Positions 1 through 39,462 of a stretch of 49,829 nt of DNA are shown one piece after another (the stretch's first letter is position 1; each line of letters opens with the position of its first letter). Under the pieces are notes generated by a model. The model saw nothing but the letters and a program-made list of their open reading frames with translations. It had not been told where the DNA came from and did not search any database. The DNA lies in IMG/VR virus record IMGVR_UViG_3300014911_000010, positions 1 to 49,829 of that record. The stretch is one strand, 5' to 3'. The DNA is from a virus. The position numbers were made by a program, and so were the translations under genes.

Positions 1-170
1 CCAAGGAGTATTTTGATAAAAACCTTGTTTTTAATCCGTGGACGCTGATTGATATGCCGAATGAATACTATCCTACGGTTCTAAAAACCGTTGGCGTTCT
101 TAAAAGACTGATAGTAGCAATAAGAGTGCTATTGGAAAAACTTACCAAAAGGTCGTTAATCAAAACATAA
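1..170 (+). CDS. 3' end of an unidentified late gene (partial, 55 residues)
   Basis: An open frame enters from the left edge and stops at TAA 168-170. The 55 residues have a hydrophobic/basic end (VLKRLIVAIRVLLEKL, then KRSLIKT) that looks like an amphipathic or membrane-seeking helix. I do not recognise the family. Its place just before two small membrane proteins and a terminator suggests a late gene of the lysis or tail region. An AAAGGTCG box (149-155) lies inside its last codons and precedes the next gene. Confidence 0.6.
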   Translation, partial: KEYFDKNLVFNPWTLIDMPNEYYPTVLKTVGVLKRLIVAIRVLLEKLTKRSLIKT

Positions 171-174
171 TTAA
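151..174 (+). promoter_or_regulatory. GGTCG leader box with short hairpin
   Basis: GGTCG at 151-155 is followed by a stem TTAAT (156-160) / ATTAA (170-174) around a 9-base A-rich loop. The box begins 34 bases before the ATG of the 58-residue membrane protein at 185. It belongs to the recurring GGTCG leader family described in the findings. Function unknown; the stem is weak (all A-T). Confidence 0.4.
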
Positions 175-184
175 GTTTATAGCA

Positions 185-361
185 ATGGAAGCGACAACGA
201 AGGATAAGATAATCTACACAATCATCATAATAACCGCTATAATAGTCATATACGCAGGGCTGTTTTTAGCCTTAAACTGGCTTGACAGCAACAATGGCTG
301 TTATTGCGGATACGATATTTACCTGCCCCCTGAAAGGTGCTGGGGGGTTTGCAATGAATAA
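185..361 (+). CDS. small single-span membrane protein (58 residues)
   Basis: ATG at 185, TAA at 359-361. After a short charged start (MEATTKDK) comes one strongly hydrophobic segment, about residues 9-31 (IIYTIIIITAIIVIYAGLFL), then a short outside/inside tail rich in cysteine (four Cys in the last 20 residues, including CYCGY and a final C-x-x-x-C). That layout fits a bitopic membrane protein. It lies directly before a holin-like gene and a terminator, so a role in lysis (spanin-like or holin accessory) is possible, but no family motif proves it. Confidence 0.6.
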   Translation: MEATTKDKIIYTIIIITAIIVIYAGLFLALNWLDSNNGCYCGYDIYLPPERCWGVCNE

Positions 362-362
362 A

Positions 363-391
363 GGTCGTAAACTAAAACATAATTAAAAACC
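363..391 (+). promoter_or_regulatory. GGTCG leader box of the holin-like gene
   Basis: GGTCG at 363-367 starts 30 bases before the ATG at 393. ACC at 389-391 can pair with GGT, as in the hairpin-bearing copies, but the inner stem here is weak. This is the compact version of the element, with A-rich sequence between box and start codon. Confidence 0.4.
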
Positions 392-392
392 T

Positions 393-656
393 ATGGTAGA
401 AGAATTTTTTGTCGGAACAATAATTTCCCTGTTAGTTCAAGTAATCAAGAAACTCTACAAGGAGTATATTGACGAGAAATGGCAGGACATAGCGGTATTG
501 GGAACGCTGGTTTTGTTTTCTTTTGGAGGAGCGTTAATTTATCAAGTATTAGTTAATCAAGGATTGTGGGAGTCGTTTTACCAAGTTGTTATTAACGCTG
601 CAGGGATTTGGGCTTTGTTCGTTAAAAGAACAGAAAAAAAGAAGGTGCAACAATAG
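393..656 (+). CDS. holin-like membrane protein (87 residues)
   Basis: The 87-residue protein has an N-terminal hydrophobic stretch (about 5-18), a central membrane segment (about 34-54, LGTLVLFSFGGALIYQVL) and a third hydrophobic helix (about 62-77), and ends in a charged tail (KRTEKKKVQQ). Small size, two or three spans and a basic end are the usual look of phage holins, which form holes in the inner membrane at lysis. It is the last gene before a strong terminator. Start: ATG 393, with no Shine-Dalgarno sequence but with a GGTCG box 30 bases upstream. The family assignment is by layout only. Confidence 0.6.
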   Translation: MVEEFFVGTIISLLVQVIKKLYKEYIDEKWQDIAVLGTLVLFSFGGALIYQVLVNQGLWESFYQVVINAAGIWALFVKRTEKKKVQQ

Positions 657-698
657 ACCTGGTTTTTCGTCATAATTGTAAGCAGGAGTGTGCCTGTA

Positions 699-739
699 AA
701 AACCTTGAGGTTTTACCGCCTTTACGGGCGGTTTTTTTA
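699..739 (+). terminator. intrinsic terminator at end of the late/lysis unit
   Basis: ACCGCC (715-720) and GGCGGT (727-732) form a 6-bp GC-rich stem with loop TTTACG, followed at once by a T run to 738. A second small hairpin, AAAACC/GGTTTT (about 699-714), sits just before it. Stem plus T-tract is the classic rho-independent terminator. It closes the transcript that enters from the left and separates it from the zinc-ribbon gene and the early promoters. Confidence 0.85.
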
Positions 740-766
740 TTGACAAAAGAGGTATAATGAAAAGAA

Positions 767-1084: not shown

Positions 1085-1119
1085 ACAAATTTGTAAATGT
1101 AGGTAGGGCTGTCTTACTC

Positions 1120-1148
1120 TTGACAACCCTTTTTTATTTTGCTATTCT
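1120..1148 (+). promoter_or_regulatory. tandem early promoter P1 (sigma-70 type)
   Basis: TTGACA (1120-1125), 17-base spacer, TATTCT (1143-1148). The surroundings (CTTACTC before, ACCCTTTTTT after the -35) match the other three copies. It has the weakest -10 of the four. Confidence 0.65.
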
Positions 1149-1176
1149 ATAAACAGAAAAAGAAATATCTTTACCC

Positions 1177-1205
1177 TTGACAACTCTTTTTAACTATGCT
1201 ACAAT
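1177..1205 (+). promoter_or_regulatory. tandem early promoter P2 (sigma-70 type)
   Basis: TTGACA (1177-1182), 17-base spacer ending in TATGC, TACAAT (1200-1205). The TG one base before the -10 gives an extended -10. The spacer is the same as in P3. Confidence 0.75.
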
Positions 1206-1265
1206 TCAATATGAGTAAAACAAAATCAACAGAACCTTTCCATTTTTTACTTCTTTTTCTTACCC

Positions 1266-1294
1266 TTGACAACTCTTTTTAACTATGCTATAAT
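1266..1294 (+). promoter_or_regulatory. tandem early promoter P3 (sigma-70 type, consensus)
   Basis: TTGACA (1266-1271), 17-base spacer, TATAAT (1289-1294) with extended -10 TG. Both hexamers are perfect consensus. The spacer is identical to P2 and nearly identical to the promoter at 11374. Confidence 0.85.
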
Positions 1295-1321
1295 AAAGGT
1301 AGAAAAAGAAAATCCAAACCC

Positions 1322-1349
1322 TTGACAACTCTTTTAAATCTGCTATAAT
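1322..1349 (+). promoter_or_regulatory. tandem early promoter P4 (sigma-70 type, consensus)
   Basis: TTGACA (1322-1327), 16-base spacer, TATAAT (1344-1349) with extended -10 TG. It is nearest to the first early gene; a transcript would begin near 1356 and carry the GGTCG hairpin leader at 1368. Confidence 0.8.
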
Positions 1350-1367
1350 ATAATAAGAATTAAAAAA

Positions 1368-1396
1368 GGTCGCAACAAGGGAAAGTTGTAAAAACC
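1368..1396 (+). promoter_or_regulatory. GGTCG hairpin leader, copy with stem CAAC/GTTG
   Basis: GGTCG (1368-1372), stem CAAC (1373-1376), loop AAGGGAAA, stem GTTG (1385-1388), then TAAAAACC, whose ACC can pair with the initial GGT. It starts about 12 bases after the likely transcription start of P4 and 61 bases before ATG 1429. The same plan recurs at 1665, 1972, 2415 and 11427 with different but still paired stems. Confidence 0.6.
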
Positions 1397-1658: not shown

Positions 1659-1664
1659 AAAAAA

Positions 1665-1690
1665 GGTCGCTTCAGAGAAGAAGTAAAAAC
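1665..1690 (+). promoter_or_regulatory. GGTCG hairpin leader, copy with stem CTTC/GAAG
   Basis: GGTCG (1665-1669), CTTC (1670-1673), loop AGAGAA, GAAG (1680-1683), then TAAAAACT. It starts 48 bases before ATG 1713. The loop is shorter than in the other hairpin copies, but order and tail are the same. Confidence 0.55.
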
Positions 1691-1712
1691 TCAAACAAAA
1701 ACAAATAAAGTT

Positions 1713-1964: not shown

Positions 1965-1971
1965 AACAAAA

Positions 1972-2000
1972 GGTCGGCTCAAGGAAAAGAGCATAAAACC
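1972..2000 (+). promoter_or_regulatory. GGTCG hairpin leader, copy with stem GCTC/GAGC
   Basis: GGTCG (1972-1976), GCTC (1977-1980), loop AAGGAAAA, GAGC (1989-1992), then ATAAAACC, whose ACC can pair with GGT. It starts 53 bases before ATG 2025. This is one of three copies with exactly the AAGGAAAA loop. Confidence 0.6.
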
Positions 2001-2414: not shown

Positions 2415-2449
2415 ACAAGAAGGAAAACTTGTAAAAACCAAAAAGGTCG
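2415..2449 (+). promoter_or_regulatory. hairpin leader ACAAG/CTTGT followed by GGTCG box
   Basis: ACAAG (2415-2419), loop AAGGAAAA (2420-2427), CTTGT (2428-2432), then AAAAACC, and only then GGTCG (2445-2449). In the other hairpin copies the box precedes the stem, so this copy has the parts in another order, or the box belongs to the next unit. Confidence 0.55.
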
Positions 2450-2937: not shown

Positions 2938-2998
2938 CGTAAGGCTCCTGCTCTTTCGTCCTTTCTCACAGGTTAATGTAGTAAAGGGCAAAATCAAA

Positions 2999-3003
2999 GG
3001 TCG
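2999..3003 (+). promoter_or_regulatory. GGTCG leader box, compact form
   Basis: AAAGGTCG with GGTCG at 2999-3003, starting 29 bases before ATG 3028. Only A-rich sequence lies between; there is no hairpin and no Shine-Dalgarno sequence. Confidence 0.45.
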
Positions 3004-3027: not shown

Positions 3028-3342
3028 ATGACATTAAGACAAGCATTAGAAGCAGTTATCAAGGAAAGCAATAACGAATATGCCAAAACCTATGCTGACG
3101 CTGCTTTAAGAATGGGAAATGCTACAGAAGGGGAAATAGTATCTGGACAAACCTATAGCAAGGTATTAAATAAAGTTATTCCTGTAATAGGAATTAAACA
3201 TAAGCCAACTGGAAAGATGATGGTAGGAGAAGAAATGAGAGTTCAGTTGTTATATGTTTTGTCTAATCTTAATCACTGGCGAGGAGAAAGAGCAAGAGAA
3301 GTAAAAAAGGTATTGAAAGAATATATTAAAAGGTCGGATTAA
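3028..3342 (+). CDS. conserved-looking phage protein of unknown function (104 residues)
   Basis: A helical 104-residue protein with a tryptophan/arginine segment near the end (GEEMRVQLLYVLSNLNHWRG, then EREVKKVLKEY-like residues). I recall similar short proteins in other phages' early regions, but no function. It follows a compact GGTCG box and is followed by another at 3332, which lies within its last codons and serves the next gene. Confidence 0.65.
   Translation: MTLRQALEAVIKESNNEYAKTYADAALRMGNATEGEIVSGQTYSKVLNKVIPVIGIKHKPTGKMMVGEEMRVQLLYVLSNLNHWRGERAREVKKVLKEYIKRSD
3332..3336 (+). promoter_or_regulatory. GGTCG leader box, compact form
   Basis: GGTCG at 3332-3336 overlaps the end of the previous gene and starts 29 bases before ATG 3361, the same spacing as the box at 2999. 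Confidence 0.45.
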
Positions 3343-4046: not shown

Positions 4047-4086
4047 CCCAGAAAAGTTCAACACGGGCAAATATAGAAGCATAAAA

Positions 4087-4113
4087 GGTCATTTCAAACT
4101 AATGTCTATAACC
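4087..4113 (+). promoter_or_regulatory. GGTCA leader, hairpin CATT/AATG
   Basis: GGT (4087-4089), CATT (4090-4093), loop TCAAACT, AATG (4101-4104), TCTATA, ACC (4111-4113). It starts 31 bases before ATG 4118. A divergent member of the GGTCG family in which the outer GGT/ACC pairing is kept. Confidence 0.4.
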
Positions 4114-4772: not shown

Positions 4773-4831
4773 ATAATTTATCAACCTTACCCTCAAAAGA
4801 CGCTCACAAGGGCAATAACGCTATAAAAAAA

Positions 4832-4836
4832 GGTCG
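4832..4836 (+). promoter_or_regulatory. GGTCG leader box, compact form
   Basis: AAAAAGGTCG with GGTCG at 4832-4836, starting 28 bases before ATG 4860. The bases between are A/T-rich; no Shine-Dalgarno sequence is present. Confidence 0.45.
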
Positions 4837-5227: not shown

Positions 5228-5461
5228 ATGAACAAAATAATAGAGGAAATAAATCCTGAAAGGTGGTATAGACCAAGAGAAATTGCTCAGAATAACTGGA
5301 TTTGTAATTCAAAAGGCAAAGGAGATTATTATCTGGTTCTAAAATTAATCAGAAAAAACAGGTTGAGAGCAAGAGATTTTGGATTAGGGAAAACTCCGTA
5401 TTATCTTGTCTGTGGGAGCGAGATAATAAGGTATATTGAATCTTTTTATCCCACAAACTAA
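5228..5461 (+). CDS. small probable DNA-binding protein, helix-turn-helix/excisionase-like (77 residues)
   Basis: From ATG 5228 the product is 77 residues. RWYRPREIAQNNWI followed by a charged helix and GKTPYYLVCGSEIIRYIES has the layout of MerR/Xis-type winged-helix proteins: an N-terminal 'choose your helix' segment, then a basic wing. That would suit a regulator or excisionase, but the match is by pattern only. I chose this start over 5174 because a good promoter lies between them. GGAAG 2 bases before the ATG is a weak Shine-Dalgarno sequence that would sit at the very 5' end of the RNA. Confidence 0.6.
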   Translation: MNKIIEEINPERWYRPREIAQNNWICNSKGKGDYYLVLKLIRKNRLRARDFGLGKTPYYLVCGSEIIRYIESFYPTN

Positions 5462-5462
5462 A

Positions 5463-5486
5463 GGTCGCAAAATAATTGTTAGGTCG
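5463..5486 (+). promoter_or_regulatory. double GGTCG box
   Basis: Two copies of AGGTCGCAAAA, with GGTCG at 5463-5467 and 5482-5486, start 34 and 15 bases before ATG 5497. A similar doubled box occurs at 39445-39462 before the tail tube gene. Confidence 0.45.
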
Positions 5487-7030: not shown

Positions 7031-7147
7031 ATTAGTAGTAATATATTATATATATTTATATTATATTATATAAATTAAGTGGCGAAAAGGTCCAAAATTA
7101 ACACATTATCCACTACTTATCCACTACTTATCCACCACTTATCCACA
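7031..7147 (+). other. candidate replication origin: AT-rich tract plus four 11-bp DnaA-box-like iterons
   Basis: A tract of almost pure A/T (about 7041-7078) is followed by four direct repeats TTATCCACN at 7106-7114, 7117-7125, 7128-7136 and 7139-7147, exactly 11 bp apart. The last is the consensus DnaA box TTATCCACA. An AT-rich unwinding tract beside boxes phased on one helical turn is the usual layout of a bacterial-type origin. TAG repeats (TAGTAGTAA, 7033-7041) lie on the far side of the tract. Confidence 0.65.
7106..7147 (+). repeat. four tandem 11-bp iterons (TTATCCACtAC)
   Basis: The repeat unit is TTATCCAC plus three bases (TAC, TAC, CAC, then A-TA). The exact 11-bp period places all boxes on one face of the helix. 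See the origin entry for interpretation. Confidence 0.9.
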
Positions 7148-7772: not shown

Positions 7773-7833
7773 TATAGAAAAGGTCATTTGTATATTAACG
7801 GAGAAACATAGGAATTGGAAAAAAGATAAAATT

Positions 7834-9169: not shown

Positions 9170-9454
9170 ATGCCAAATCAGAACATCAAAAAAGAAATAA
9201 AAAAGCACCTCTATATGATACTAAACCTTGCAGGCGTTAAAAAAAGCATCGCTGATAAAGTTGTCCCAGTAGGAACAGAAAGAATAATAGACGATGTGGT
9301 AAGAGAGGCGTTTGAGCGGTTTATAGAGGGAACGAAACCCTATAAAGCAGGCGAAGTTGTTCCTGTAGACGATGTAAGAGAAGGGGATGGTATTAAGAAG
9401 TGTCTTAAAAAACTTGACCAAAAACAACAACAATGGCTAAAAGACAACCTCTAA
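9170..9454 (+). CDS. paralogue 1 of a small helical family (94 residues)
   Basis: The order 'basic helix, ERIIDDVVREAFERFIEGTK, linker, C-terminal QQQWLKDNL' is shared with the 143-residue protein at 9781 (IDKIVELFKNSIQRFIEETT and AKWLEENL), so the two look like diverged copies. Its last codons (CAATGGCTAAAAGACAACCT) are also the start of the next gene in another frame. Function unknown. Confidence 0.6.
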   Translation: MPNQNIKKEIKKHLYMILNLAGVKKSIADKVVPVGTERIIDDVVREAFERFIEGTKPYKAGEVVPVDDVREGDGIKKCLKKLDQKQQQWLKDNL

Positions 9455-9621
9455 AAAAAGTTGAAACAGGAAGAATATGTTGGGGATGTGGAGAACCAAT
9501 TTATTACAATCCTGAGACGGATAAGTATATAGAGCCTGTTGACTATGAGATTATAAGAGATGTATATTATCATTCTCGGTGCAGGAAGAAAGCGTTGAAG
9601 AAAATTTTGAAGATTAAGTAA
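9433..9621 (+). CDS. small zinc-binding protein (62 residues)
   Basis: Begins MAKRQPLKK, overlapping the previous gene by 22 bases. C-W-G-C (ICWGCGEPIYY) and, about 30 residues later, H-S-R-C (YYHSRCRKKALKK) can form a CCHC-type zinc site, followed by a basic tail. This suggests nucleic-acid or protein binding. Confidence 0.65.
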   Translation: MAKRQPLKKVETGRICWGCGEPIYYNPETDKYIEPVDYEIIRDVYYHSRCRKKALKKILKIK

Positions 9622-9622
9622 A

Positions 9623-9802
9623 ATGGCTGAAAGGAAACCTATGAGAAACAAAATAGATTGGGAAAAATGGAAAAGATTTCTTAATTGGGTTAATCAATTA
9701 AGCCCTTGGAATTTATGGACACCCCAAACTTGGCATAAGGAAGATATTAGAAAAAGAAAATTGAATTTAAAAGTAAGACAATGGCTAAAAAACAACCTCT
9801 AA
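9623..9802 (+). CDS. small Trp-rich basic protein (59 residues)
   Basis: ATG 9623, TAA 9800-9802; too short to be seen by length filters. It begins MAERKPMRNKIDWEKWKRFL and ends VRQWLKNNL. Both ends match the repeated junction of this block: its start codes KWLKGNL-stop in another frame, and its end codes MAKKQPLK of the next gene. Rich in Trp and Lys/Arg. Function unknown. Confidence 0.6.
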   Translation: MAERKPMRNKIDWEKWKRFLNWVNQLSPWNLWTPQTWHKEDIRKRKLNLKVRQWLKNNL

Positions 9803-10212
9803 AAAACAAAATAAGAACAGAAATAATAAAAATAGTCAGCGTCCCGCCAAAAAGAAAAGGAGATACAGGTTATCTGAAGTTGACGGATGAAGAGATTGAT
9901 AAGATAGTGGAGTTATTTAAAAATAGTATTCAACGCTTTATAGAGGAAACAACCAAAGAATTAAGAGAAGAATTAGCAGAATTAGAACATAAACAATTAG
10001 AAAGTTGGACAAGATGTATTTTGGAAGAGTGGGTTAGGTGTGAAGGTTTTGCGGATGGTTTTCTTTCTCGGTTGGAAAGGAAGTGGACTGAAAACTGGAA
10101 ACCTTATTCAGAATTACCTGAAGAAGATAAAGATAAAAGTAGAGTGTGGGCGAATAAAGTATTAGGAAAACTTAAACAAAACCAAGCAAAATGGCTGGAA
10201 GAAAATCTATGA
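9781..10212 (+). CDS. paralogue 2 of the small helical family (143 residues)
   Basis: Begins MAKKQPLKNKIRTEIIKIV and carries IDKIVELFKNSIQRFIEETT, like the 94-residue protein at 9170, plus an extra acidic/aromatic middle section (LESWTRCILEEWVRCEGFAD). It ends AKWLEENL, and that end is the start of the next gene in another frame (MAGRKSMK). Mostly helical; function unknown. Confidence 0.65.
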   Translation: MAKKQPLKNKIRTEIIKIVSVPPKRKGDTGYLKLTDEEIDKIVELFKNSIQRFIEETTKELREELAELEHKQLESWTRCILEEWVRCEGFADGFLSRLERKWTENWKPYSELPEEDKDKSRVWANKVLGKLKQNQAKWLEENL

Positions 10213-10583
10213 AAAAAGAAAAGAAAAAGAAGAGTATATTATCGTGGGAAGAGGTACAGGCTTTAAAAAGAGAGATTGGTTTATTGATGAAAAATGGAAT
10301 TATTCCAGGAGATAGCCGAAGTTTTGGTAAGAAATTTGTGTCTATGGAATTTTTATTGAGTTACAAAAAACAAAAAGAGATGTGGATAAAGATTATTGAT
10401 TTTTTAAAAAGATATGCCAAAATGCCTAAAAAACAACCTATAACCAAACAAAAAATAATAAATCAAATAAAAAAGAAAATCAGAAAAAGGTTAAAGGAAT
10501 TAGCTTTTGAAGACGGAAATGTTGACGAGAATTGGCAGGTGTTGTATAAAAAATTAGTAGAGGATATAGACAGTGGATTATGA
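10191..10583 (+). CDS. basic protein, apparent in-frame fusion of two junction-series units (130 residues)
   Basis: The first unit starts MAGRKSMKKEKKKKSILSWE. At residue 78 a second start-like motif, MPKKQPITKQKIINQIKKK, appears in the same frame (ATG 10422), so two units that elsewhere overlap out of frame are here fused or could also be started internally. The second half resembles the N-terminal basic helix of the paralogues at 9170 and 9781. Function unknown. Confidence 0.55.
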   Translation: MAGRKSMKKEKKKKSILSWEEVQALKREIGLLMKNGIIPGDSRSFGKKFVSMEFLLSYKKQKEMWIKIIDFLKRYAKMPKKQPITKQKIINQIKKKIRKRLKELAFEDGNVDENWQVLYKKLVEDIDSGL

Positions 10584-11373: not shown

Positions 11374-11402
11374 TTGACAACCCTTTTTAACTATGCTATA
11401 AT
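11374..11402 (+). promoter_or_regulatory. sigma-70 type promoter, fifth copy of the tandem-promoter repeat
   Basis: TTGACA (11374-11379), 17-base spacer, TATAAT (11397-11402) with extended -10 TG. About 36 bases match the promoters at 1120-1294, including the spacer ACCCTTTTTAACTATGC. It probably drives the long gene string from 11491. Confidence 0.88.
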
Positions 11403-11426
11403 CTCAAAAACTAAAAAAATCAAAAA

Positions 11427-11466
11427 GGTTGGGAGAAGGAAAACTCCTTAAAACCAAAAAAGGTCG
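11427..11466 (+). promoter_or_regulatory. GGTTG hairpin leader GGAG/CTCC plus GGTCG box
   Basis: GGTTG (11427-11431), GGAG (11432-11435), loop AAGGAAAA, CTCC (11444-11447), TTAAAACC, then a separate GGTCG box at 11462-11466 starting 29 bases before ATG 11491. It holds both forms of the element in one leader behind a consensus promoter. Confidence 0.6.
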
Positions 11467-12977: not shown

Positions 12978-14169
12978 GTTTGTTTTTAATCTCACGCATT
13001 GGTGCTTTGATTATGATGAGTATTTAGATGAGTATAAATTTTTAGACAGCGGTAGTTTTGTTAATAGGTTAGAAAAATTCAACGAGTATGTTCGCAAGAA
13101 TTATCCTGGTATTGTAGAGAGAGGATATACAGACAGAGAGACCTTAAAGGGTTTCTTTTTTTCATTTCCAAAAAGTAAAAAGGTTCAGGAGGTTAGAACA
13201 AGCGGTTCTTCTGGTAAGCCTTTTCATTTCTGGGTTGATAGTAGAGCAATGGCTTCAAGATTTGCCCTGGTTGATTACAGATTTCGCCAGATAGGTTATA
13301 AAAAGGGAGATAGCTTTGTAAGGTTTTGGTATCCGACCACTGGACATACAAAAATTCAATTGCTAAAAGAAAAGTTGTGGAGAATTGTCAATCGTGAGCA
13401 TTTTATTTCCTATTTTGATATGGTCTCTGGCAAGAAAAAAATGATTGATTATGTTAGGTTTATTCAGAAGCATAAGCCAAAATTAATTGAAGGATATGCT
13501 GGAGGATTAATAGCAATGGCTGAGTTTATTCTGGAACACGGGATTAAAATGCCAAAAGTTGAATGGATAGTAACTGGAGCAGGAATGGTAAACCAAAAGC
13601 ACAAGAAAATGATTGAAGAAGCGTTTAATTGTTCTGTATATGATAGATATGGCTGCTCTGAATTTGGCGAGATTGCTCACCAGTTACCAGGTATAGATTA
13701 TTATGAGTCCAATCCTTACTTGGAAATCTTTGTTGCTACTGACAAAAAAATGTATAAATTACACGAAGCCCCTGATGGCGAATATGGAATTTTTGTAACG
13801 GACCCGAGAAATTATGCTACGCCGTTTTGGAGATACCGAATGGGGGATATAGTAAAAGTAGAAAACGGAAAGATAATTGCAATAAAGGGAAGGGCAGAAG
13901 AAACTATGAGACTGCCTAATGGTGATTACCTGCCCACTGGATTTTTCTATCAGTTTTTTAAGGATAGTGCTTGGGTTGACCGATGGCAGATAATTTATGA
14001 CCCAGCGGAGAAAGAATTGATTGTGAAAACCAGTCCTTATTATTTAGAGGAAAACCTAAGAAATGTTCTTGAAAGGCAGTATTTTAGAGGCATAAAGGTC
14101 AAGTATCAGATTGGCAATTTTGAAACGACAGGAAGAAGAAAGAAGATACAGGAAATTATTATAAGATGA
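12970..14169 (+). CDS. CapK/PaaK-like adenylate-forming enzyme (399 residues)
   Basis: RTSGSSGKPFHFWVDSRA is the ATP/phosphate loop of the PaaK/CapK branch of adenylate-forming enzymes. IEGYAGGLIAMAEFI, VTGAGMV and DRYGCSEFGEIAHQ are further family blocks, and PFWRYRMGDIV carries the conserved motif with Arg and Asp. CapK-type proteins occur in capsule and cell-wall glycan clusters and probably activate an acyl group for transfer to a sugar. It lies between a deacetylase and a glycosyltransferase, which fits an N-acyl exchange. GAGGTGAT before the ATG is one of the few Shine-Dalgarno-like sites. Confidence 0.75.
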   Translation: MNRFVFNLTHWCFDYDEYLDEYKFLDSGSFVNRLEKFNEYVRKNYPGIVERGYTDRETLKGFFFSFPKSKKVQEVRTSGSSGKPFHFWVDSRAMASRFALVDYRFRQIGYKKGDSFVRFWYPTTGHTKIQLLKEKLWRIVNREHFISYFDMVSGKKKMIDYVRFIQKHKPKLIEGYAGGLIAMAEFILEHGIKMPKVEWIVTGAGMVNQKHKKMIEEAFNCSVYDRYGCSEFGEIAHQLPGIDYYESNPYLEIFVATDKKMYKLHEAPDGEYGIFVTDPRNYATPFWRYRMGDIVKVENGKIIAIKGRAEETMRLPNGDYLPTGFFYQFFKDSAWVDRWQIIYDPAEKELIVKTSPYYLEENLRNVLERQYFRGIKVKYQIGNFETTGRRKKIQEIIIR

Positions 14170-15593
14170 GGATATTGTATATTCCATTTTTTAGCAACAG
14201 TGGGAATCACAATGGTTGCAGTATTTATAATGTGATGAAGGTTATTTTGAGACATTGGGTTGATATTGACCCGAACATTTATGTTTATTTTTTATTGCCG
14301 AGAAACTTTCCGTATAAAGAAGAAGAAATCATAAATCACCCCAGAATTGAGAAAATTTATGTGGAAGCGTTTCGCGAACAGCACGATGAAAAAATCTTGA
14401 TTCCGAGAGAGATATTTAACTTGTTTAATGTTGATTGGGGGGAAAAGTATTATGATGTTGTCTTATCAGACAAAACACAAGTGACTGCTTGGATTAAGAT
14501 GATTTTGGAAAGTAAGAAGAAAGAAAAAGCAAGGGTGCCTTATATCAATTTTGCCCAGTTTATTGCTAAAAAAGAGGGAAGGTTTAAGACAATTCTGGAC
14601 GAGTATGAATTTACCTGCACGTTAGGTTGGCTGTCTGGGTATAATGTTTTTCAGAATAAAAGGCACGCTCAGAGATGTTTTGAAATCGCCCAGAAATACC
14701 TGAAACCGTTTTGGGTTAAAGAAATAATGGAGAAAAGCCATGCTGTTAATCTGTTTGGGGTTGATATTAAGAGGTTAAAAAATTTTGCCGCAGGAAATAA
14801 TTACAAAGCTGGAGATACGTTTATAGTAAATTATGCTCATAGAATGGCGACGCATTATAATCCGATGTTTGTATTAGATGTGGTTGATAAAGTGTTTAGC
14901 TCTGGAGAAAAGATAAAACTCGTTATCACAACGCCAAGTAGTGGAACAGGAACAGCGGTAATGAGAAAATTAAAAGAAATGATGAAAAGGGGGATGCCAG
15001 TGGAAATCCATCATGCATTGCCCCAAGATGAATTTTACAAAGTAGCAAGTCGGTGTCATTTATTTATTTCTGCGATTGATGAGACCGAAACCGCTAATAG
15101 TATTTTTGAACAAGTATATTTAGGACAGGTTGGAATTTTGCCAAAAGAAAATTGGGTGCAAGAATTCTTTCCAGAATATCCCTATCGATATCAAGGATTG
15201 AATGAAGCATACTTGCTTGTCAAAGAATTTATTAGAAATCCCCAAGAAATGAAAAATAAGGTAGAAAAATACCGCAAGATGATAGAAAATGAGTGGGATA
15301 TTGACAAGAATAGTGAGGATGTATTACAATGGGTTAAGAAGATATTGAGAAACTATAAACCAGAAAGAAGATTGGTAGAAATCGCACAGGAAGTCTTGGA
15401 AAAAGCAGGAAAGCCAAAAGAATTTACCTTTCAAGAATTAAGAGAGATGTTCAAGAAATACAGCGTCTATGGAATTGATATTAAAAGATTGGGCTATAAA
15501 GGATTTAATAAATTTGATTGGATTAAAGCTGTAAAAGAAATTGGTTATCAAGATACCTTAGAAAAAGAGTTGAGATTCAAAAGAAAGCCTTAG
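14166..15593 (+). CDS. GT-B glycosyltransferase with extra C-terminal domain (475 residues)
   Basis: MRILYIPFFSNSGNHNGCSI is a typical GT-B opening. The second half has the donor-site features: MATHYNPMFVLDVVDKVF (retaining GT4-like start of the second Rossmann domain), HHALPQDEFYKVASRCHLFI and DETETANSIFEQVYLGQVGI (the E-x7-E-like block). After about residue 395 comes a separate helical segment (FTFQELREMFKKYSVYG) that looks like a small winged-helix-type appendage. ATGA overlap with the CapK-like gene. Confidence 0.7.
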   Translation: MRILYIPFFSNSGNHNGCSIYNVMKVILRHWVDIDPNIYVYFLLPRNFPYKEEEIINHPRIEKIYVEAFREQHDEKILIPREIFNLFNVDWGEKYYDVVLSDKTQVTAWIKMILESKKKEKARVPYINFAQFIAKKEGRFKTILDEYEFTCTLGWLSGYNVFQNKRHAQRCFEIAQKYLKPFWVKEIMEKSHAVNLFGVDIKRLKNFAAGNNYKAGDTFIVNYAHRMATHYNPMFVLDVVDKVFSSGEKIKLVITTPSSGTGTAVMRKLKEMMKRGMPVEIHHALPQDEFYKVASRCHLFISAIDETETANSIFEQVYLGQVGILPKENWVQEFFPEYPYRYQGLNEAYLLVKEFIRNPQEMKNKVEKYRKMIENEWDIDKNSEDVLQWVKKILRNYKPERRLVEIAQEVLEKAGKPKEFTFQELREMFKKYSVYGIDIKRLGYKGFNKFDWIKAVKEIGYQDTLEKELRFKRKP

Positions 15594-15619
15594 TTGTCAA
15601 GATTTGTTGCAGATTTGCA

Positions 15620-16938: not shown

Positions 16939-16961
16939 AAGAAGAGAATAGAAAAATAGAT

Positions 16962-23512: not shown

Positions 23513-23516
23513 CCTT

Positions 23517-23741: not shown

Positions 23742-23766
23742 TTTTACTGGATTGGCATACTATAAT
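23738..23766 (+). promoter_or_regulatory. sigma-70 type promoter of the homing endonuclease
   Basis: TTGATT (23738-23743), 17-base spacer, TATAAT (23761-23766), then the ATG of the HNH gene only 9 bases later, so the transcript would be almost leaderless. Inserted endonuclease genes often carry their own promoter. Confidence 0.6.
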
Positions 23767-23774
23767 AAAATAAT

Positions 23775-24834: not shown

Positions 24835-26374
24835 AATAAAAAGTGCTATTTGGAGATTATCAGAAATGATTCAGAGATATAACGAGCACCTCTTTATTGA
24901 TATCTTGCCTTTTCATCCGAAAAGGTATAGTCAGGATGATTTGAGATTGTTTGAAGAAAAAGCAAAAGATGCTGATTTAATCCATTTTATGTATTGGAAA
25001 AATGCTTTGATTTTATTGAAACGTTTTCCTTCTTTAAGGGATAAACCTAAAATTTTAACTCACCATAACCCTTATGACTTGCATCAGGATAATTGGAAAG
25101 ATTTCAACGCTGTTGTAGTCCATAATAAAACTCAATTAAAAGAACTTCCTGGCTCTTTTATGATACCTCACGCAGTTGATTTGAATTTCTTTAAATATAA
25201 TTCCAATTATACAGAAAATAAAGTAGTGGGAATGGTTGCTTTTAGAATAGAAGGACATAAAGGGATAAAAGAAGTTGCTCAGGCGTGTAAAGAATTAGGA
25301 TATAAGTTTTTGTTAGTTGGACGAATTTCAAAGCCAAATTATTTTAAAGAAATAATAGAAGTTAATCCTGAAACTGATTTTAGAGAAGATGTGTCGGACG
25401 AAGAACTAAGAGGGGCATATAAAGAAATGGCGGTTTTGGTTTGTAATTCAGTTGATAATTTTGAATCTGGACCTTTAGTTGTTTTAGAAGCAATGGCTAC
25501 TGGCGTTCCTGTTTTAACAAGAAATATAGGATTAGTGCCTGATGTTTACAATGAAAAGAATATGGTAGTAAGAAGCGGTCAGTATAATGATTTGGAAGAT
25601 TTAAAGAATGAGTTGAAGGTTCTAATGGAAAATAGAGAAATAAGGTTGAGAATAAGAGAAAATGCCTGGCAAACTGTTAAGAATATGTCAGCAGAACATT
25701 ATGCCAGAAGATATGCTGAACTTTACAATATGGTGTTGTTTGAAGAACCTCTTGTTTCTGTGATTATTCCTACCTACAACAGAAAAGAGCAGGTGGCAGA
25801 GATTTTAAAGTCATTAGATAGTCAAACCTATCAGAATATAGAGGCTGTAGTAGTAGATGACAATTCAATTGACGGAACAGAGTCGGTAGTAAAACAAATG
25901 AGAGAAAGGGTTAGGTATCCTATTAAGTTCTTGGAGACAGGTAGAGAAGGATATAATTTAGCAATGGCAAGGAATATGGGAGCAATAGAGGCAGAAGGAA
26001 AAATATTATTGTTTTGTGATGATAGATTAAAACCTCATTCTGATGCTGTTTATCAATTTGCTAAACAGGTCTTGAAAGATAAAGAAAAGATATGGTATTT
26101 TGGAGATAAAGGGAGTGGAAAACAAAGTTTTGTTGAGAACTTTAGTGCCATTAGAAGAAGTCATTTTATTAACGCTGGAATGCTCTCGGAAAGAATGGAT
26201 AGATATGGTGGAATAACCCAAGAGGTTAGTTTGAGATTTAGAAGTCAGGGATTTAAATTCAGATATGTTCCTTTTGCAAAAGCGAAGGAAATCAAATCAT
26301 CAAGAGCAAAGAAAACCAGAAAAGATGATATTTACAAGATGAAATTAAAACTCTTTAAGATGTATGGAAAATGA
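24809..26374 (+). CDS. two-domain glycosyltransferase, GT-B (GT4-like) fused to GT-A (GT2) (521 residues)
   Basis: Residues about 1-310 are GT4-like: HHNPYDLHQDNWKDFNAVVV, MIPHAVDLNFF, FRIEGHKGIKEVAQA and NFESGPLVVLEAMATGVPV (donor E-x7-E). From about residue 314 a GT2 domain begins, PLVSVIIPTYNRKEQVAEIL, with VVVDDNSIDGTESV and FCDDRLKPH (DxD-like metal site). Such fusions build two successive glycan linkages. The start ATG 24809 is chosen over 24722 because the latter lies in the methyltransferase half. Confidence 0.8.
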   Translation: MRTLIVVDKIKSAIWRLSEMIQRYNEHLFIDILPFHPKRYSQDDLRLFEEKAKDADLIHFMYWKNALILLKRFPSLRDKPKILTHHNPYDLHQDNWKDFNAVVVHNKTQLKELPGSFMIPHAVDLNFFKYNSNYTENKVVGMVAFRIEGHKGIKEVAQACKELGYKFLLVGRISKPNYFKEIIEVNPETDFREDVSDEELRGAYKEMAVLVCNSVDNFESGPLVVLEAMATGVPVLTRNIGLVPDVYNEKNMVVRSGQYNDLEDLKNELKVLMENREIRLRIRENAWQTVKNMSAEHYARRYAELYNMVLFEEPLVSVIIPTYNRKEQVAEILKSLDSQTYQNIEAVVVDDNSIDGTESVVKQMRERVRYPIKFLETGREGYNLAMARNMGAIEAEGKILLFCDDRLKPHSDAVYQFAKQVLKDKEKIWYFGDKGSGKQSFVENFSAIRRSHFINAGMLSERMDRYGGITQEVSLRFRSQGFKFRYVPFAKAKEIKSSRAKKTRKDDIYKMKLKLFKMYGK

Positions 26375-28225: not shown

Positions 28226-29073
28226 TGTCGGTGTATAATAATAAACCAATCGGGATACTTCTTTTTGAACAATTTCACGGACGTTCGCCTAATAGTATTG
28301 GCAGTTCTCGGATTAGAGGTCATTGGCTTGTTAAGTATTGGGATAAGGCTGAGATATTTCAACAAGGAGCAAAGTATGATGTGGTAATTTTTCAAAAGGT
28401 TTATTGGTTGGATTATGTTAAGATATTTAAAGGGATAAAGATTCTTGATATTTGCGACCCCGACTACTTGGATACAGTTCCAGTAAAAGAGATAATAGAT
28501 AATTGTGATGCCGTTACTACTTCTACTGAAGCATTGGCAGAGGCAGTGAGACAATTTACAGATAAACCAGTTAGATGTATTCCTGATAGGGTAGATTTGG
28601 AAACTCACAATGTTCAGAAAAAGCATCAAGGAAGAGCAAAGAAAGTGGTTTGGTTTGGTTATTCTCACAATGCTGAAACGCTTGATGCTACAATTTCAAC
28701 ATTAAAAAGATTTGGGTTAAAATTAAAAGTAATCTCTGATTTTCGCCCCCCTTATTCAAAAGCAGATGAGAATGTAAAATTTGAGAATGAAACATTTAAT
28801 AAAGAAGTTTTAGATTGTGATATTGTCCTACTCCCAAAAGATACCAGACCAAGAGGAAGATTTAAGAGCAATAATAAAACATTGATTGCTTGGGCTTTAG
28901 GAATGCCAGTTGCTACTAATTTTGACGAATTAAAAAGATTTTTAGACCCTTTAGAAAGGCAAAAGGAAGTAGAAAAAAGATTAAAAGAAATAAGAAAGAA
29001 GTGGGATGTTAAGAAATCAGTTGAAGAATTTAAAAATCTGATTCAAGAAATAAAAAATGGAAAAAGATTATGA
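28225..29073 (+). CDS. GT-B type glycosyltransferase (282 residues)
   Basis: SPNSIGSSRIRGHWLVKYW is an N-terminal loop, CDPDYLDTVPVKEIIDNCDA and TTSTEALAEAVRQFTDKPV the middle of the first domain, then KKVVWFGYSHNAETLDATIS begins the second Rossmann domain. LLPKDTRPRGRFKSNNKTLI AWALG-type sequence is the donor site (K-x-N-K block, with no classical E-x7-E). It starts at ATG 28225, overlapping the previous stop by one base. Confidence 0.7.
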   Translation: MSVYNNKPIGILLFEQFHGRSPNSIGSSRIRGHWLVKYWDKAEIFQQGAKYDVVIFQKVYWLDYVKIFKGIKILDICDPDYLDTVPVKEIIDNCDAVTTSTEALAEAVRQFTDKPVRCIPDRVDLETHNVQKKHQGRAKKVVWFGYSHNAETLDATISTLKRFGLKLKVISDFRPPYSKADENVKFENETFNKEVLDCDIVLLPKDTRPRGRFKSNNKTLIAWALGMPVATNFDELKRFLDPLERQKEVEKRLKEIRKKWDVKKSVEEFKNLIQEIKNGKRL

Positions 29074-31545: not shown

Positions 31546-31575
31546 TTGACAAATAAAATAGAGTTGTAGTAAAAT
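31546..31575 (+). promoter_or_regulatory. probable promoter of the protease/capsid genes
   Basis: TTGACA (31546-31551), 18-base spacer, TAAAAT (31570-31575). The -10 is weaker. It is followed by a GGTCG box (31583-31587) and the hairpin below. It would give extra transcription for the abundant capsid protein. Confidence 0.5.
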
Positions 31576-31591
31576 AACTAAAGGTCGGCAA

Positions 31592-31635
31592 AAGTCTGAC
31601 AGAAAAACTGAGGACTTAGCAATAAGTCCTCTTTT
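31592..31635 (+). promoter_or_regulatory. attenuator-like hairpin before the prohead protease
   Basis: GAGGACTTA (31610-31618) pairs with TAAGTCCTC (31623-31631) around a GCAA tetraloop: 9 bp followed by TTTT. Upstream AAGTC (31592-31596) can pair with GACTT (31613-31617) of the left arm, with CAG/CTG (31600-31602 with 31608-31610) inside, which would break the main hairpin. This is the layout of an attenuator, 9-12 bases before ATG 31644. Confidence 0.5.
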
Positions 31636-31643
31636 AATAAAAT

Positions 31644-33185
31644 ATGGAAAAAAAATCAATAGAAGCGTTAGTTGAGAAAAAAGGTGGTAAGTTAGTTGCT
31701 ATTGCCTCTACTGAGACAAAAGACAGAATGGGGGATGTTATTAAAGCAGAAGGTTGGGATTTAAAGAATTTTAAGAAAAATCCTGTTATTCAATTTGCTC
31801 ATAAATATGACCAGCCTCCTATTGGTATTGCAGAAAATATAAGAGTGCAAGATAAAAAACTTATTTTTGAACCAGTTTTTCACGAGATAACTCAACTTGC
31901 GAGAGATGTTAAAAGAATGTTTGAAGAAGGAATAATGAGGGCATTTTCCGTTGGATTTATTCCTAAAAAATTTATTAACGAAAAAGGCGAGGAGGTTGAG
32001 CCAAAAATGAGGGATAATATAATTGCTGAAGCCGAATTGTTAGAAATATCTGCTGTTCCTATTCCAGCAAATGCTGAGGCATTAACGCTACCGAAAGAAT
32101 ATACAGAAAAGGAGAGCAAAGAGGTTTGTAATTGGATAAAGGGCAAACTGAAATGTAGTAACCAAAAATCATTAGAAAATGAAGCGGATGAAATTAGTGA
32201 TGCAGAAATGAAACCCTATCCAAATGAGCATACCTGCGTTCTGACTGATGTGAAGAAATATGATAAGTTTGCCAGAAAGAATTGTGCTGTCAAGCATGAT
32301 GGAAAGTGTATTGATTATATCTTTGGAATTAAGAATGGTAAGTCGGAGCTTCACTCTATGAGGTATAAAATTGATGTCTGGACTGAGTCTGCGGCAAGAG
32401 CACATTGCAAAGAACATAAAGGGATTAAGTTTGAACCAGCTGCTCCCAAAAAGACAGAGGAAGAGATTGAGTTAAAGGGAGTTATTCCCTATAAGAATAC
32501 AGGAAAGGCTCCTGAAAATGAACCCTGGGATGCTGGGGCAGAATTAAAGAAAGCGACAGGTGACGCTAAAAAGTTAAGAACAATGCACGCCTGGGTTGAT
32601 ACGAGTGATGATAATTTTGACCCTTCTGAAAGGAAATGGTATAAACTGCCCCATCACAAAGGAGATGGCACACAACCAGCGGTTTGGAGGGGGGTAGCTG
32701 CAGCAATGGGTGCTTTATTTGGAGCGAGAGGAGGAGTAGATATTCCTTCAAGTGATAGAAGGGGAGTTTACAATCATTTAGCAAAGCATTATAAAGAATT
32801 TGATAAAACTCCTCCTGAATTTAGAGAGTATACTGAGTCCGAGTTAAAATCTATGAGCGAAGCTGGTGATATTTATATAGAACCAACTGAAACGGAAGTT
32901 CAAGAAAAAGAAGGAAGAGTTTTGTCTGGTAAAAACAGAAAACAGATTGAAGAGGCAGTTTCAATTTTGAAACAAGCAGTTTCCACTTTGCAGAAGTTGC
33001 TCAAAGCAACTGAGCCTGCTAAAAGTGGGGAAGGCAAACTGAAAAAAGGTCGCTCAGAGGAGGCACAGGAACCACTGAGGAACAGGGTTGTAGTGCGGGC
33101 TCTGCAAAAAATGTCTGGTGATTTAAGCCAGATATTGAACCAAATTAAAAGAACTAAAAAAAATGGAAAGAAAACAAGCTCCTGA
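31644..33185 (+). CDS. HK97-type prohead protease with long C-terminal extension (513 residues)
   Basis: Residues 1-155 are a peptidase of family S78: KNPVIQFAHKYDQPPIG holds the catalytic His53 and IMRAFSVGFIPKKF the Ser102, then EISAVPIPANAEAL. It cleaves the scaffold part of the capsid protein. Residues about 185-255 (HTCVLTDVKKYDKFARKNC, then WTESAARAHCKEHKG) and about 275-390 (PWDAGAELKKATGDAKKL, KWYKLPHHKGDGT, SSDRRGVYNHLAKHYKEF) are extra domains seen in some phage proteases of this group. The last 23 bases overlap the capsid gene. Confidence 0.85.
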   Translation: MEKKSIEALVEKKGGKLVAIASTETKDRMGDVIKAEGWDLKNFKKNPVIQFAHKYDQPPIGIAENIRVQDKKLIFEPVFHEITQLARDVKRMFEEGIMRAFSVGFIPKKFINEKGEEVEPKMRDNIIAEAELLEISAVPIPANAEALTLPKEYTEKESKEVCNWIKGKLKCSNQKSLENEADEISDAEMKPYPNEHTCVLTDVKKYDKFARKNCAVKHDGKCIDYIFGIKNGKSELHSMRYKIDVWTESAARAHCKEHKGIKFEPAAPKKTEEEIELKGVIPYKNTGKAPENEPWDAGAELKKATGDAKKLRTMHAWVDTSDDNFDPSERKWYKLPHHKGDGTQPAVWRGVAAAMGALFGARGGVDIPSSDRRGVYNHLAKHYKEFDKTPPEFREYTESELKSMSEAGDIYIEPTETEVQEKEGRVLSGKNRKQIEEAVSILKQAVSTLQKLLKATEPAKSGEGKLKKGRSEEAQEPLRNRVVVRALQKMSGDLSQILNQIKRTKKNGKKTSS

Positions 33186-34361: not shown

Positions 34362-34568
34362 ATGCAAAAAATTATTTATCTCAAAGATTATCAAAATCAT
34401 AAAAAAGGAGAGGTTGAGATTGTGAGTAATAATGTTGCTCACGGATTGATTGAGCAAGGAGTGGCAAACCTTTTTGGTTATCAGGCTGAAGCATTATTTA
34501 AGCCACCTGTAGATAAGATGATGCGGACGACAAGAAGAAAAACTAAAGGTCGTTATTCTACAAAGTAA
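34362..34568 (+). CDS. small conserved head-region protein (68 residues)
   Basis: IIYLKDYQNHKKGEVEIVSN followed by NVAHGLIEQGVANL matches a short family often found just after phage capsid genes (K-x-x-x-LKDYxxHKKGDxxEVxNNxAHGLIE), with unknown role, perhaps a head accessory or head-fibre part. The basic tail (TTRRKTKGRYSTK) overlaps an AAAGGTCG at 34545 that is in-gene. Confidence 0.65.
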   Translation: MQKIIYLKDYQNHKKGEVEIVSNNVAHGLIEQGVANLFGYQAEALFKPPVDKMMRTTRRKTKGRYSTK

Positions 34569-37731: not shown

Positions 37732-37734
37732 AAT

Positions 37735-38334
37735 ATGCCATATACAACCAAATCAAAAATTCAAAATTACTTACTAATAGATATTGACTCTTCCTTTGAT
37801 TCACAAATAAGTGATTGGATTTCAGCTGTGGAAAAGTGGATTGAAACCTATACTGGCAGAAAGTTTGAAGAAGAATCAGCAACCTATAAATTGTATGACG
37901 GAGATGGAACAAAAGAACTTCTGATTGATGATTTGATAAGTTTGACAAAGATTGAGATTCTGGATGAAGATGGTGATGTTGATTATACAATTGACGATAG
38001 CAATGAGTATTATCTGTATCCTGCAAATGAAACTCCTAAAACAAGGATTGTTTTGAATTCCTCAAATGCTCCAGTTGCAGTATTCCCAAAAGGTCATCAG
38101 AATATCAAGGTGACTGGAAGTTTTGGTTATGCATCAAGTGTGCCAAAAGATATAGAACTTGTGGCTACAAAATTAGTAGCAGGTATTATAGAAGAAAAAC
38201 AAATTGATATAGCAGGAGAAATAAAATCAGAAAAGTTGGGAGAATATTCTGTTACCGCCCAAGATATTGAAAAGATGGCAAATCATTTAGGAGTCCTTGA
38301 AATTTTGGATAAATACAGAAAAATTCCAATATGA
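37735..38334 (+). CDS. head-tail connector, gp6-like (199 residues)
   Basis: DSQISDWISAVEKWIETYTG, KFEEESATYKLYDGDGTKEL, VYYLYPANETPKTRIVL-like beta core and VTGSFGYASSVPKDIELVAT follow the order of the HK97 gp6-type connector proteins that form the ring under the portal. ATG 37735 comes three bases after the previous stop. Its stop overlaps the next gene by ATGA. Confidence 0.75.
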   Translation: MPYTTKSKIQNYLLIDIDSSFDSQISDWISAVEKWIETYTGRKFEEESATYKLYDGDGTKELLIDDLISLTKIEILDEDGDVDYTIDDSNEYYLYPANETPKTRIVLNSSNAPVAVFPKGHQNIKVTGSFGYASSVPKDIELVATKLVAGIIEEKQIDIAGEIKSEKLGEYSVTAQDIEKMANHLGVLEILDKYRKIPI

Positions 38335-38648
38335 CTGCACTTCTTAATCTTTTTACAAATAAAATAGTTATTTCAAGATTGAGCGAGGTTTCAGGAAATA
38401 AGACTGCTTATTCTACTGTAACCTCAGAATATGTTAATATTCAAAGAATGAGTGATGAAAAAGTAGTAAATATAGGAGGAGCGATAGGTAAGACGTTTAG
38501 ATTATATTGTGAAGAAGATACAGATATCCAGAAAGGAGATAAATTGGTAGATGAAGATGGGAATGAGTATAAGGTAATAGCAGTCGCTACTCCTGCAGAA
38601 TTAGGAAATTTTATTCACAAAGAATGTATTATTAATTTGGTAAAATGA
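38331..38648 (+). CDS. head-closure/adaptor protein (105 residues)
   Basis: A small beta-barrel pattern, VISRLSEVSGNKTAYSTVTS, DTDIQKGDKLVDEDGNEYKV, fits the head-closure (SPP1 gp16/lambda FII-like) family. It lies between the gp6-like and gp10-like genes, the normal place. Overlaps at both ends (ATGA). Confidence 0.6.
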   Translation: MTALLNLFTNKIVISRLSEVSGNKTAYSTVTSEYVNIQRMSDEKVVNIGGAIGKTFRLYCEEDTDIQKGDKLVDEDGNEYKVIAVATPAELGNFIHKECIINLVK

Positions 38649-39013
38649 TAAAAATAGAAATAAAAGGAATTGACAAATTAAATAGGAAGTTTAGAATATT
38701 ACCAAGGAGGCTAAAGGGGGGAATTGAGAACGCTATCAGAAAATCTGCTTTTTTGGTGGAGGCAACAAGTAAAGAAACGGTATCAAGAGGTCCTTTAAGA
38801 GCAGTAGATACTGGAAGAATGATGAGAAGTATTGCTCCTGATTACGTGAGGGCGTTTGAAACAGCGATTGCTCCCCATACTGAGTATGCAATTTATGTGC
38901 ACGAAGGAACTCGTTATATGAGGGCAAGACCATTTATGAAAGTAGGAGCAGAAAAAGCAGAACCTGGAATACGAAGATTTTTTGAAGAAGCAGTAAAAGA
39001 GGCTATTAGATAA
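38645..39013 (+). CDS. HK97 gp10-like tail/neck protein (122 residues)
   Basis: IEIKGIDKLNRKFRILPRRL, AIRKSAFLVEATSKETVSRG, APHTEYAIYVHEGTRYMRARPF is the clear signature (Y-A-x-Y-V-H-E-G-T-x-x-M-x-A-R-P-F) of the HK97 gp10 family, which joins head and tail. Normal length. Confidence 0.85.
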   Translation: MIKIEIKGIDKLNRKFRILPRRLKGGIENAIRKSAFLVEATSKETVSRGPLRAVDTGRMMRSIAPDYVRAFETAIAPHTEYAIYVHEGTRYMRARPFMKVGAEKAEPGIRRFFEEAVKEAIR

Positions 39014-39014
39014 T

Positions 39015-39443
39015 ATGGCTTGGGCAAATATCAAATCAAAAGTTAAAAGTAAATTGGAGTCAATTGATTCTATTCAAGAGGTTCAGGATTATCCGACAGA
39101 GGAGTTTAATGGTTTTCCTGCGGCAGTTATTGAGACAGTAAGAAACGAATCAGATTTTGAGACAACTAATGAAAACAGAAGAAGTTATGTTTTTAACATT
39201 TATCTTTTACAAGAAATAGAGAGTAAAGGGGTAAAAAAGGCAAGAGAGATAATAGAAGAAGTGGTTGATGATGTGATGGAGGCGTTTGATGAAGACCAGC
39301 AATTATCAGGAATAAGTTTACCGAGTAATGAGGTAATGGTCATAAGTTTACCAGCACTTTCAAGAATTTATACAAGCGAAAAAGGAAAGTATATGGTAGG
39401 AGAGGTAGAATTGAAAATAATCACGAGTTTTTCAATTTCGTAA
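39015..39443 (+). CDS. tail terminator-like protein (142 residues)
   Basis: KVKSKLESIDSIQEVQDYPT, NGFPAAVIETVRNESDFETT and NENRRSYVFNIYLLQEI fit the tail-terminator fold (beta-alpha with a charged loop). It comes after gp10 and before the tail tube, the usual place for the ring that caps the finished tail. Sequence match is moderate. Confidence 0.65.
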   Translation: MAWANIKSKVKSKLESIDSIQEVQDYPTEEFNGFPAAVIETVRNESDFETTNENRRSYVFNIYLLQEIESKGVKKAREIIEEVVDDVMEAFDEDQQLSGISLPSNEVMVISLPALSRIYTSEKGKYMVGEVELKIITSFSIS

Positions 39444-39444
39444 A

Positions 39445-39462
39445 GGTCGTTATTAAAGGTCG
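39445..39462 (+). promoter_or_regulatory. double GGTCG box before the tail tube gene
   Basis: GGTCG at 39445-39449 and 39458-39462, with TTATT/AATAA flanking the second. They start 40 and 27 bases before ATG 39485. They may raise expression of the abundant tail tube protein. Confidence 0.45.

Follow-up and report, generated by a model that had tools for sequence, protein, structure and literature searches.

How start codons are chosen in bacteria without Shine-Dalgarno pairing is an open question, and the Patescibacteria, in which it arises here, are a huge and hardly cultured group. The question is raised by a 49.8-kilobase (kb) virus record, IMGVR_UViG_3300014911_000010 (positions 1 to 49,829, the whole stretch analyzed, hereafter the window), which encodes terminase, portal, HK97-type capsid and tail genes, nearly all on the + strand, and in whose intergenic gaps the octamer AAAGGTCG (hereafter the box) recurs. 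A preliminary description had noted GGTCG, or its variants GGTCA and GGTTG, at a near-constant distance before start codons lacking a Shine-Dalgarno sequence, and had proposed that it acts in translation start or RNA handling. Computation establishes that the box exists, that its sequence is strict, that it keeps one orientation and a spacing to the start codon, and that it is present in both phages and bacteria. It is well supported that the box is a cis-acting element of messenger RNA (mRNA) leaders, read on RNA in one orientation. Most likely, it helps ribosomes find start codons without Shine-Dalgarno pairing. A strict, spaced leader word in a bacterial order without the anti-Shine-Dalgarno sequence, and in phages, makes the question of start choice directly testable.

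A strict octamer upstream of start codons

The window contains 19 copies of AAAGGTCG on the coding (+) strand and 0 on the other. With no motif preselected, the octamer ranked first among all intergenic 8-mers, above the TTGACA promoter words, and 10 copies were wholly intergenic against 0.16 expected. Before genes, 13 gap boxes were observed, compared with 0.14 in dinucleotide shuffles of the gaps; 7 of the gap boxes lay 24–42 nucleotides (nt) from ATG, compared with 0.03 in the same shuffles. Box density was 2.76 per kb in gaps and 0.133 per kb elsewhere, a ~20-fold difference; boxes equally common inside genes would have refuted the preliminary description. The pattern AAAGGTCGN{20,26}ATG had 7 matches against 0.12 expected, a number reached by 0/100 whole-sequence dinucleotide shuffles. 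Given the gaps, the clustering of spacings in the window alone was modest (placement null, P = 0.024). Gene starts were taken as the first ATG of open frames rather than annotated starts, and coding copies explained by conserved codons were not counted as boxes. One such copy, at 33045..33052 (+), was rejected as a leader box; it represents Lys-Gly-Arg codons in the capsid-protease/scaffold gene and is conserved with the protein in relatives.

All positions in the preliminary description carry GGTCG, GGTCA or GGTTG; its coordinates mark the first G of GGTCG, and the octamer starts 3 nt earlier. The compact distances it gave on that scale (30, 29, 29, 31, 28, 29 and 27) proved exact. They belong to boxes, all on the + strand like the other window features below, at 360..367 (sharing bases with the end of a short reading frame before it, TAA-AGG; ATG 393), 2996..3003 (ATG 3028), 3329..3336 (in the final codons of the preceding gene; ATG 3361), 4084..4091 (the variant AAAGGTCA; ATG 4118), 4829..4836 (ATG 4860), 11459..11466 (ATG 11491) and 39455..39462 (the second box before a minor tail gene; ATG 39485). 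An additional compact box that had been overlooked, at 34545..34552 (ATG 34578), has a distance of 30 on the same scale. Further boxes lie at 148..155 (ATG 185), at 5460..5467 (overlapping the preceding gene's stop; ATG 5497), where a second, partial box AGGTCG follows at 5481..5486, and at 39442..39449 (overlapping the upstream stop codon; ATG 39485). The box at 2442..2449 has its nearest ATG at 2458, and the gene start there is uncertain. A second copy of AAAGGTCA, at 7779..7786, is a weak case, 55 nt start to start from ATG 7834, and another variant, AAAGGTTG, is present at 11424..11431.

The spacing claimed in the preliminary description recurs in related phages and in bacterial genomes. 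Related contigs were obtained by a search with the window capsid protein. G001 (51.5 kb, capsid 79% identical) carries 17 boxes on its coding strand and 0 on the reverse strand, nine of them at 24–42 nt from a start codon, and G014 carries 10 and 0, respectively. The placement null for spacing gave P < 0.001 for G001 and P = 0.18 for G014, which has only 4 gap boxes. In orthologues the box was kept and the spacer changed, as seen when the window genes starting at 4860, 5497 and 39485 were compared with their boxed G001 orthologues and the gene at 34578 with its boxed homolog in L010. Scanning viral contigs with an AT-only spacer pattern yielded 37 stretches, several with series of 3–15 boxes per locus, often all on one strand (15 in L207; 9/9 well placed in L220; 7/7 in L209; 9 in L197).

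Measured from the start of the octamer to the A of ATG, the distance is mostly 24–42 nt, with a median of 33 in phages and 36 in bacteria. Phage leaders held 57 exact octamers against 0.24 expected, and bacterial leaders 23 against 0.28. Substitutions are hardly tolerated, and a final A is the sole variant that is clear in both sets of leaders. Of the phage box genes at sites chosen for low spacer GC, 82% have A at −3 and 79% have A at −6, and T is found at −1. The spacer is A-rich and GC-poor in sites selected for that property, yet also in most unfiltered window sites. When four compact leaders were folded, two were without structure and two weakly structured. The leaders thus have a Kozak-like context, with A at −3 and an A-rich, unstructured leader without a Shine-Dalgarno sequence, to which the box is an addition. 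The lack of a Shine-Dalgarno sequence, which had been presented as a property of the box genes, turned out not to be special to them, since few genes of these phages, boxed or not, are preceded by such a motif (1/26 box genes versus 24/197 other genes, P = 0.32).

Promoters, operon-internal boxes and hairpins

Is the box read on DNA or on RNA? As a DNA element, it would be part of a phage or alternative sigma promoter, or the operator of a transcription factor. Its occurrence in the gaps ahead of genes and close to −10 elements is compatible with this, and phage stoperators and promoters are also one-directional. However, the box is preceded by ordinary TTGACA/TATAAT promoters at a variable distance. 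In the window, TTGACA-17-TATAAT (1266..1294) and TTGACA-16-TATAAT (1322..1349) precede the box at 1365..1372, which begins 15 nt past the −10 element of the latter. Another TTGACA-17-TATAAT (11374..11402) has boxes 15 and 50 nt past its assumed transcription start, the second being that at 11459. TTGACA-18-TAAAAT (31546..31575) precedes the capsid protease operon, with the box at 31580..31587 near the assumed transcription start. Boxes follow sigma70 promoters also in the phages L197 and L208 and in the host loci L252 and L256. The distance from the −10 element to the box varies, often between 0 and ~20 nt, and no second positioned element was found at a fixed distance downstream of the box. 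The box is also used within operons after stop codons, often overlapping the stop as TAAAGGTCG, and once a terminator-like hairpin lies between box and ATG. With no fixed second element and promoters upstream at variable distance, a promoter element was rejected as the best reading, and we regard a role on DNA as improbable. As a separate observation, window positions 1112-1350 hold four tandem near-consensus sigma70 promoters (CTTGACAACTCTTTT...TATAAT) ahead of the boxed gene at 1429.

The start-codon distance is the feature common to promoter-proximal and operon-internal boxes, and it falls in the compact range also at the sites with longer spacers once their folded elements are subtracted. 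The preliminary description had placed these in a second class at 48-61 nt with a hairpin or extra sequence in between, and we indeed found a hairpin, or a hairpin plus tail, in the spacer. Such sites are the window boxes at 1365..1372 (ATG 1429), 1662..1669 (ATG 1713), 1969..1976 (ATG 2025) and 31580..31587 (ATG 31644), together with that at 18666 in G014; without the folded element, 28–42 nt remain from octamer start to ATG. Since boxes occur both downstream of promoters and between cistrons, with a distance tied to ATG and a length in the compact range once the hairpin is subtracted, reading on RNA is favored.

Several of the hairpins belong to a 24-nt element adjoining boxes, composed of a 4-bp hairpin with a AAGGAAAA-type loop and the tail TAAAACC. 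In the window, CAAC-AAGGGAAA-GTTG with tail TAAAAACC lies at 1373..1396, CTTC-AGAGAA-GAAG with tail TAAAAACTC at 1670..1692, GCTC-AAGGAAAA-GAGC with tail ATAAAACC at 1977..2000, CAAG-AAGGAAAA-CTTG with tail TAAAAACC at 2416..2439, where it is positioned before its box, and GGAG-AAGGAAAA-CTCC with tail TTAAAACC at 11432..11455; a further copy is found in G014 (L031, − strand, 1828). All four stem pairs covary on both sides among six copies. The element is a candidate H-type pseudoknot, in which the loop GG may pair with the tail CC, as at 1373..1396, or in one copy (1670..1692) the loop GAG with the complementary tail CTC. In size and layout, the 24-nt hairpin with its A-rich tail presumably resembles the small H-type pseudoknots of the preQ1-I type; it differs from them in sequence and in adjoining the box, and the window has no Rfam match at gathering score. 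The combination of the AAGGAAAA hairpin and box was rejected as a general viral element, as only one additional contig matched a strict pattern.

A different hairpin, GAGGACTTAGCAATAAGTCCTC followed by TTTT at 31610..31631, is terminator-like and lies in the box-to-ATG spacer of the capsid protease gene. This leader (window 31580-31643; ~28834-28905 in the reversed G001 record) has a strong hairpin and T-run just before ATG in both phages, and an upstream AGTC could alternatively pair with GGACT, an attenuator-like arrangement. Three other leaders following sigma70 promoters (reversed G001 26474; reversed G014 3791 and 52618) share a small hairpin (CC..CGGA..ACCG..AGG), then a terminator-like hairpin and ATG, which looks like antitermination or attenuation control.

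The box in Patescibacteria and the loss of the anti-Shine-Dalgarno sequence

Bacterial use of the box was sought in 380 genomes of the Patescibacteria, the phylum of G018, a Magasanikbacteria bin carrying a related capsid gene. The box followed by an AT spacer and ATG gave 48 sites, clustered in a handful of small genomes, and the reversed pattern gave 16. The order of G375, which consists of tiny Patescibacteria, had 201 sites versus 15 for the reversed pattern, with sites in 96/147 genomes, and 46 mostly Firmicutes control genomes (~145 Mb) gave 6 versus 4. These host counts depend on the AT-spacer filter, which the reversed-pattern control balances. Use of the box throughout the phylum was rejected, given that a free-spacer pattern shows no visible excess over the reversed control; the box is lineage-limited within Patescibacteria and visible with the AT-spacer pattern. 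In an unbiased count, GGTCG or AGGTC was the top or near-top 5-mer upstream of genes in G300, G375, G069 and G200; neither ranked at or near the top in the controls G343 and G190 or in G291 and G249. The shared box suggests that the host of this phage belongs to the box-using order. An archaeal host, prompted by the best genome match in the Pacearchaeota bin L111, was set aside, as the window has bacterial −35/−10 promoters and the bin may be mixed.

The box-rich genomes share a change in 16S ribosomal RNA (rRNA). None of the five with 16S data retains CCUCC; their 3' ends read GGAACACTTAAAC (G069), GGAACAATTAAAC (G144), GGATCACTACATTT (G300), GGATCATTTCTTTT (G375) and GAAACTTTTCTTTT (G200). 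Box-rich genomes made up 0/35 of those with CCUCC and 5/10 of those without it (P = 2e-4). This test calls a genome box-rich from two sites upward, a cut-off set once the data had been seen, and the related genomes in it are not independent. Across the order of G375, CCUCC is missing in 59/60 readable 16S 3' ends, of which two keep CCUC-A. The exception, G480, differs in the sequence preceding CCUCC and may be a contaminant. On a 16S tree, the loss needs as few as two changes, and one change remains compatible. Separately, the 16S gene of G375 (L264 / L277) has an intron-like insertion of ~900 bases near its 3' end, with protein-coding-like sequence.

Could the box itself be a variant Shine-Dalgarno sequence that pairs with another part of the rRNA or with a 16S end that has been altered? 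Both mark starts upstream of ATG, the box contains AAAGG, which is part of the classical Shine-Dalgarno sequence, and the hosts have changed 16S ends. However, the box lies ~33 nt from ATG, too far for the 5–13 nt of Shine-Dalgarno sequences, and is a much stricter octamer; the altered 16S ends of the box-rich genomes, which lack CCUCC, are not complementary to it. Nor was a conserved complement of at least 7 pairs found in a search confined to 16S rRNA genes. We therefore consider such pairing very improbable.

The host box genes include rpsG, infC, HU, Hsp20, MscL, KhpA, TatA, a type IV pilin and surface proteins, which are typical high-output genes and appear to be highly expressed. This gene set bears on another explanation, that the box is the site of a regulatory RNA-binding protein or small RNA whose regulon was joined by the phages. 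A minority of host genes is boxed, the sequence is strict, and several phage boxes have a covarying hairpin nearby, all of which a regulon could accommodate. Yet the host set is functionally mixed (rpsG and infC beside HU, Hsp20, MscL and pilins), the phage uses the box before early-region and structural genes alike, and repression would not favor a fixed spacing so far upstream. Moreover, CGACCTTT, the full complement of the box, is absent from the window, G001 and G014, and hence no perfect antisense is encoded by these phages. We judge a regulon to be unlikely, although regulation by a binding protein still competes with the main reading.

The same genes could also be boxed for the sake of mRNA stability or processing near 5' ends, the box either blocking decay from the 5' end or marking where the mRNA is cut back to a short A-rich leader. 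Host boxes begin 0–20 nt past many −10 elements and hence lie at the mRNA 5' end or close to it, the genes look highly expressed, and so strict an octamer could serve as a nuclease target or shield the 5' end. However, the distance is tied to the start codon even far from promoters, after stop codons in operons, and with a folded insert the remaining length to ATG stays in the same range. Stability or processing is thus an explanation to be kept in mind, although we think it unlikely.

A probable role in translation start and its relation to known signals

The distance to ATG, the use within operons, the missing anti-Shine-Dalgarno sequence and the gene set together argue for a role in translation start, which we consider probable. 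Of the two roles named in the preliminary description, action at the RNA level is favored and the loss of the anti-Shine-Dalgarno sequence strengthens the link to translation; the choice between translation and RNA handling remains a matter of inference. Either a part of the initiating 30S subunit or something bound to it, such as the protein bS1 or another factor, would recognize the octamer by its sequence, and the ribosome, loaded on the A-rich leader, would then find the nearby ATG. As there is no conserved 16S complement, S1-domain proteins are present in all genomes and bS21 is patchy, recognition by a protein is favored. In its most specific form, the proposal is that an order without the anti-Shine-Dalgarno sequence uses a strict octamer ~33 nt upstream, read by a ribosome-associated protein, for highly expressed genes, and that phages adopted it for early-region and structural genes; we advance this tentatively, as a possibility that falls a little short of an even chance.

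Several observations weigh against a role in translation start. Host boxes lie close to the transcription start, which is also compatible with a role in RNA stability or one tied to promoter proximity. Boxed genes make up ~3–12% of sampled host genes, which rules the box out as a start signal used by these cells in general, and the AT-only spacer patterns used for host sites favor AT-rich leaders. No binding partner was found in 16S rRNA, and S1-domain proteins occur in box and non-box genomes alike; the presence of bS21 or S1-domain proteins was accordingly rejected as an explanation, as it did not differ between them. Finally, G291, G249, G211, G366 and G115 lack the anti-Shine-Dalgarno sequence and have no box series. 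Loss of CCUCC, as the first four of these show, therefore does not imply the box. Those four (loci L291-L293, L303 and L312) form a Patescibacteria clade with 16S ends of GGAACATATCCAATT and similar sequence.

Known systems resemble the box in part. In Flavobacterium johnsoniae (Bacteroidota), starts without a Shine-Dalgarno sequence have a Kozak-like context, with A at −3 and an A-rich, little-structured leader (PMC6847099). Flavobacterium ribosomes, in contrast, keep the anti-Shine-Dalgarno sequence, and the accessible part of that report describes single positions near ATG and no octamer box (PMC6847099). The start-associated sequences (SAS) and extended SAS (ESAS) of Cluster K mycobacteriophages are likewise a repeated, one-directional word in gaps, sometimes overlapping the upstream stop and in some cases accompanied by a second structured element (PMC3203893). 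SAS, however, was described in phages, includes AGGAG, lies where a ribosome-binding site would and is able to pair with 16S rRNA (PMC3203893), whereas the box is a different word, distant from ATG, not complementary to 16S rRNA and common to bacterial genes. The absence of CCUCC has already been reported for the candidate phyla Absconditabacteria, Campbellbacteria and Wolfebacteria (PMC10783764); the accessible part of that source describes no replacement leader motif, while here the box is linked to such a lineage. Except for a table in that source, the literature searched did not link Patescibacteria by name to anti-Shine-Dalgarno loss. The octamer was not found in this literature, which largely excluded subscription papers and preprints. 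No known element was found to share its word, distance and host range; the box would be less of a novelty as an RNA-stability element. It offers a sequence signature by which phages can be assigned to these hosts and would make start-codon prediction more accurate.

Three other features of the window deserve mention. The gene at 7153 is preceded, at 7106-7146, by three direct repeats (TTATCCACTAC) that are nearly identical, have a spacing of 11 bases and appear iteron-like. Successive small genes at 9432-10473 have near-identical DNA around their starts (AATGGCTAAAAAACAACCTCTAAAAAA), perhaps reflecting a duplicated family of short genes. A sugar-nucleotide/glycosyltransferase cluster (nucleotide-sugar epimerase, UDP-glucose dehydrogenase and glycosyltransferases) extends over 14166-26374 around the terminase gene.

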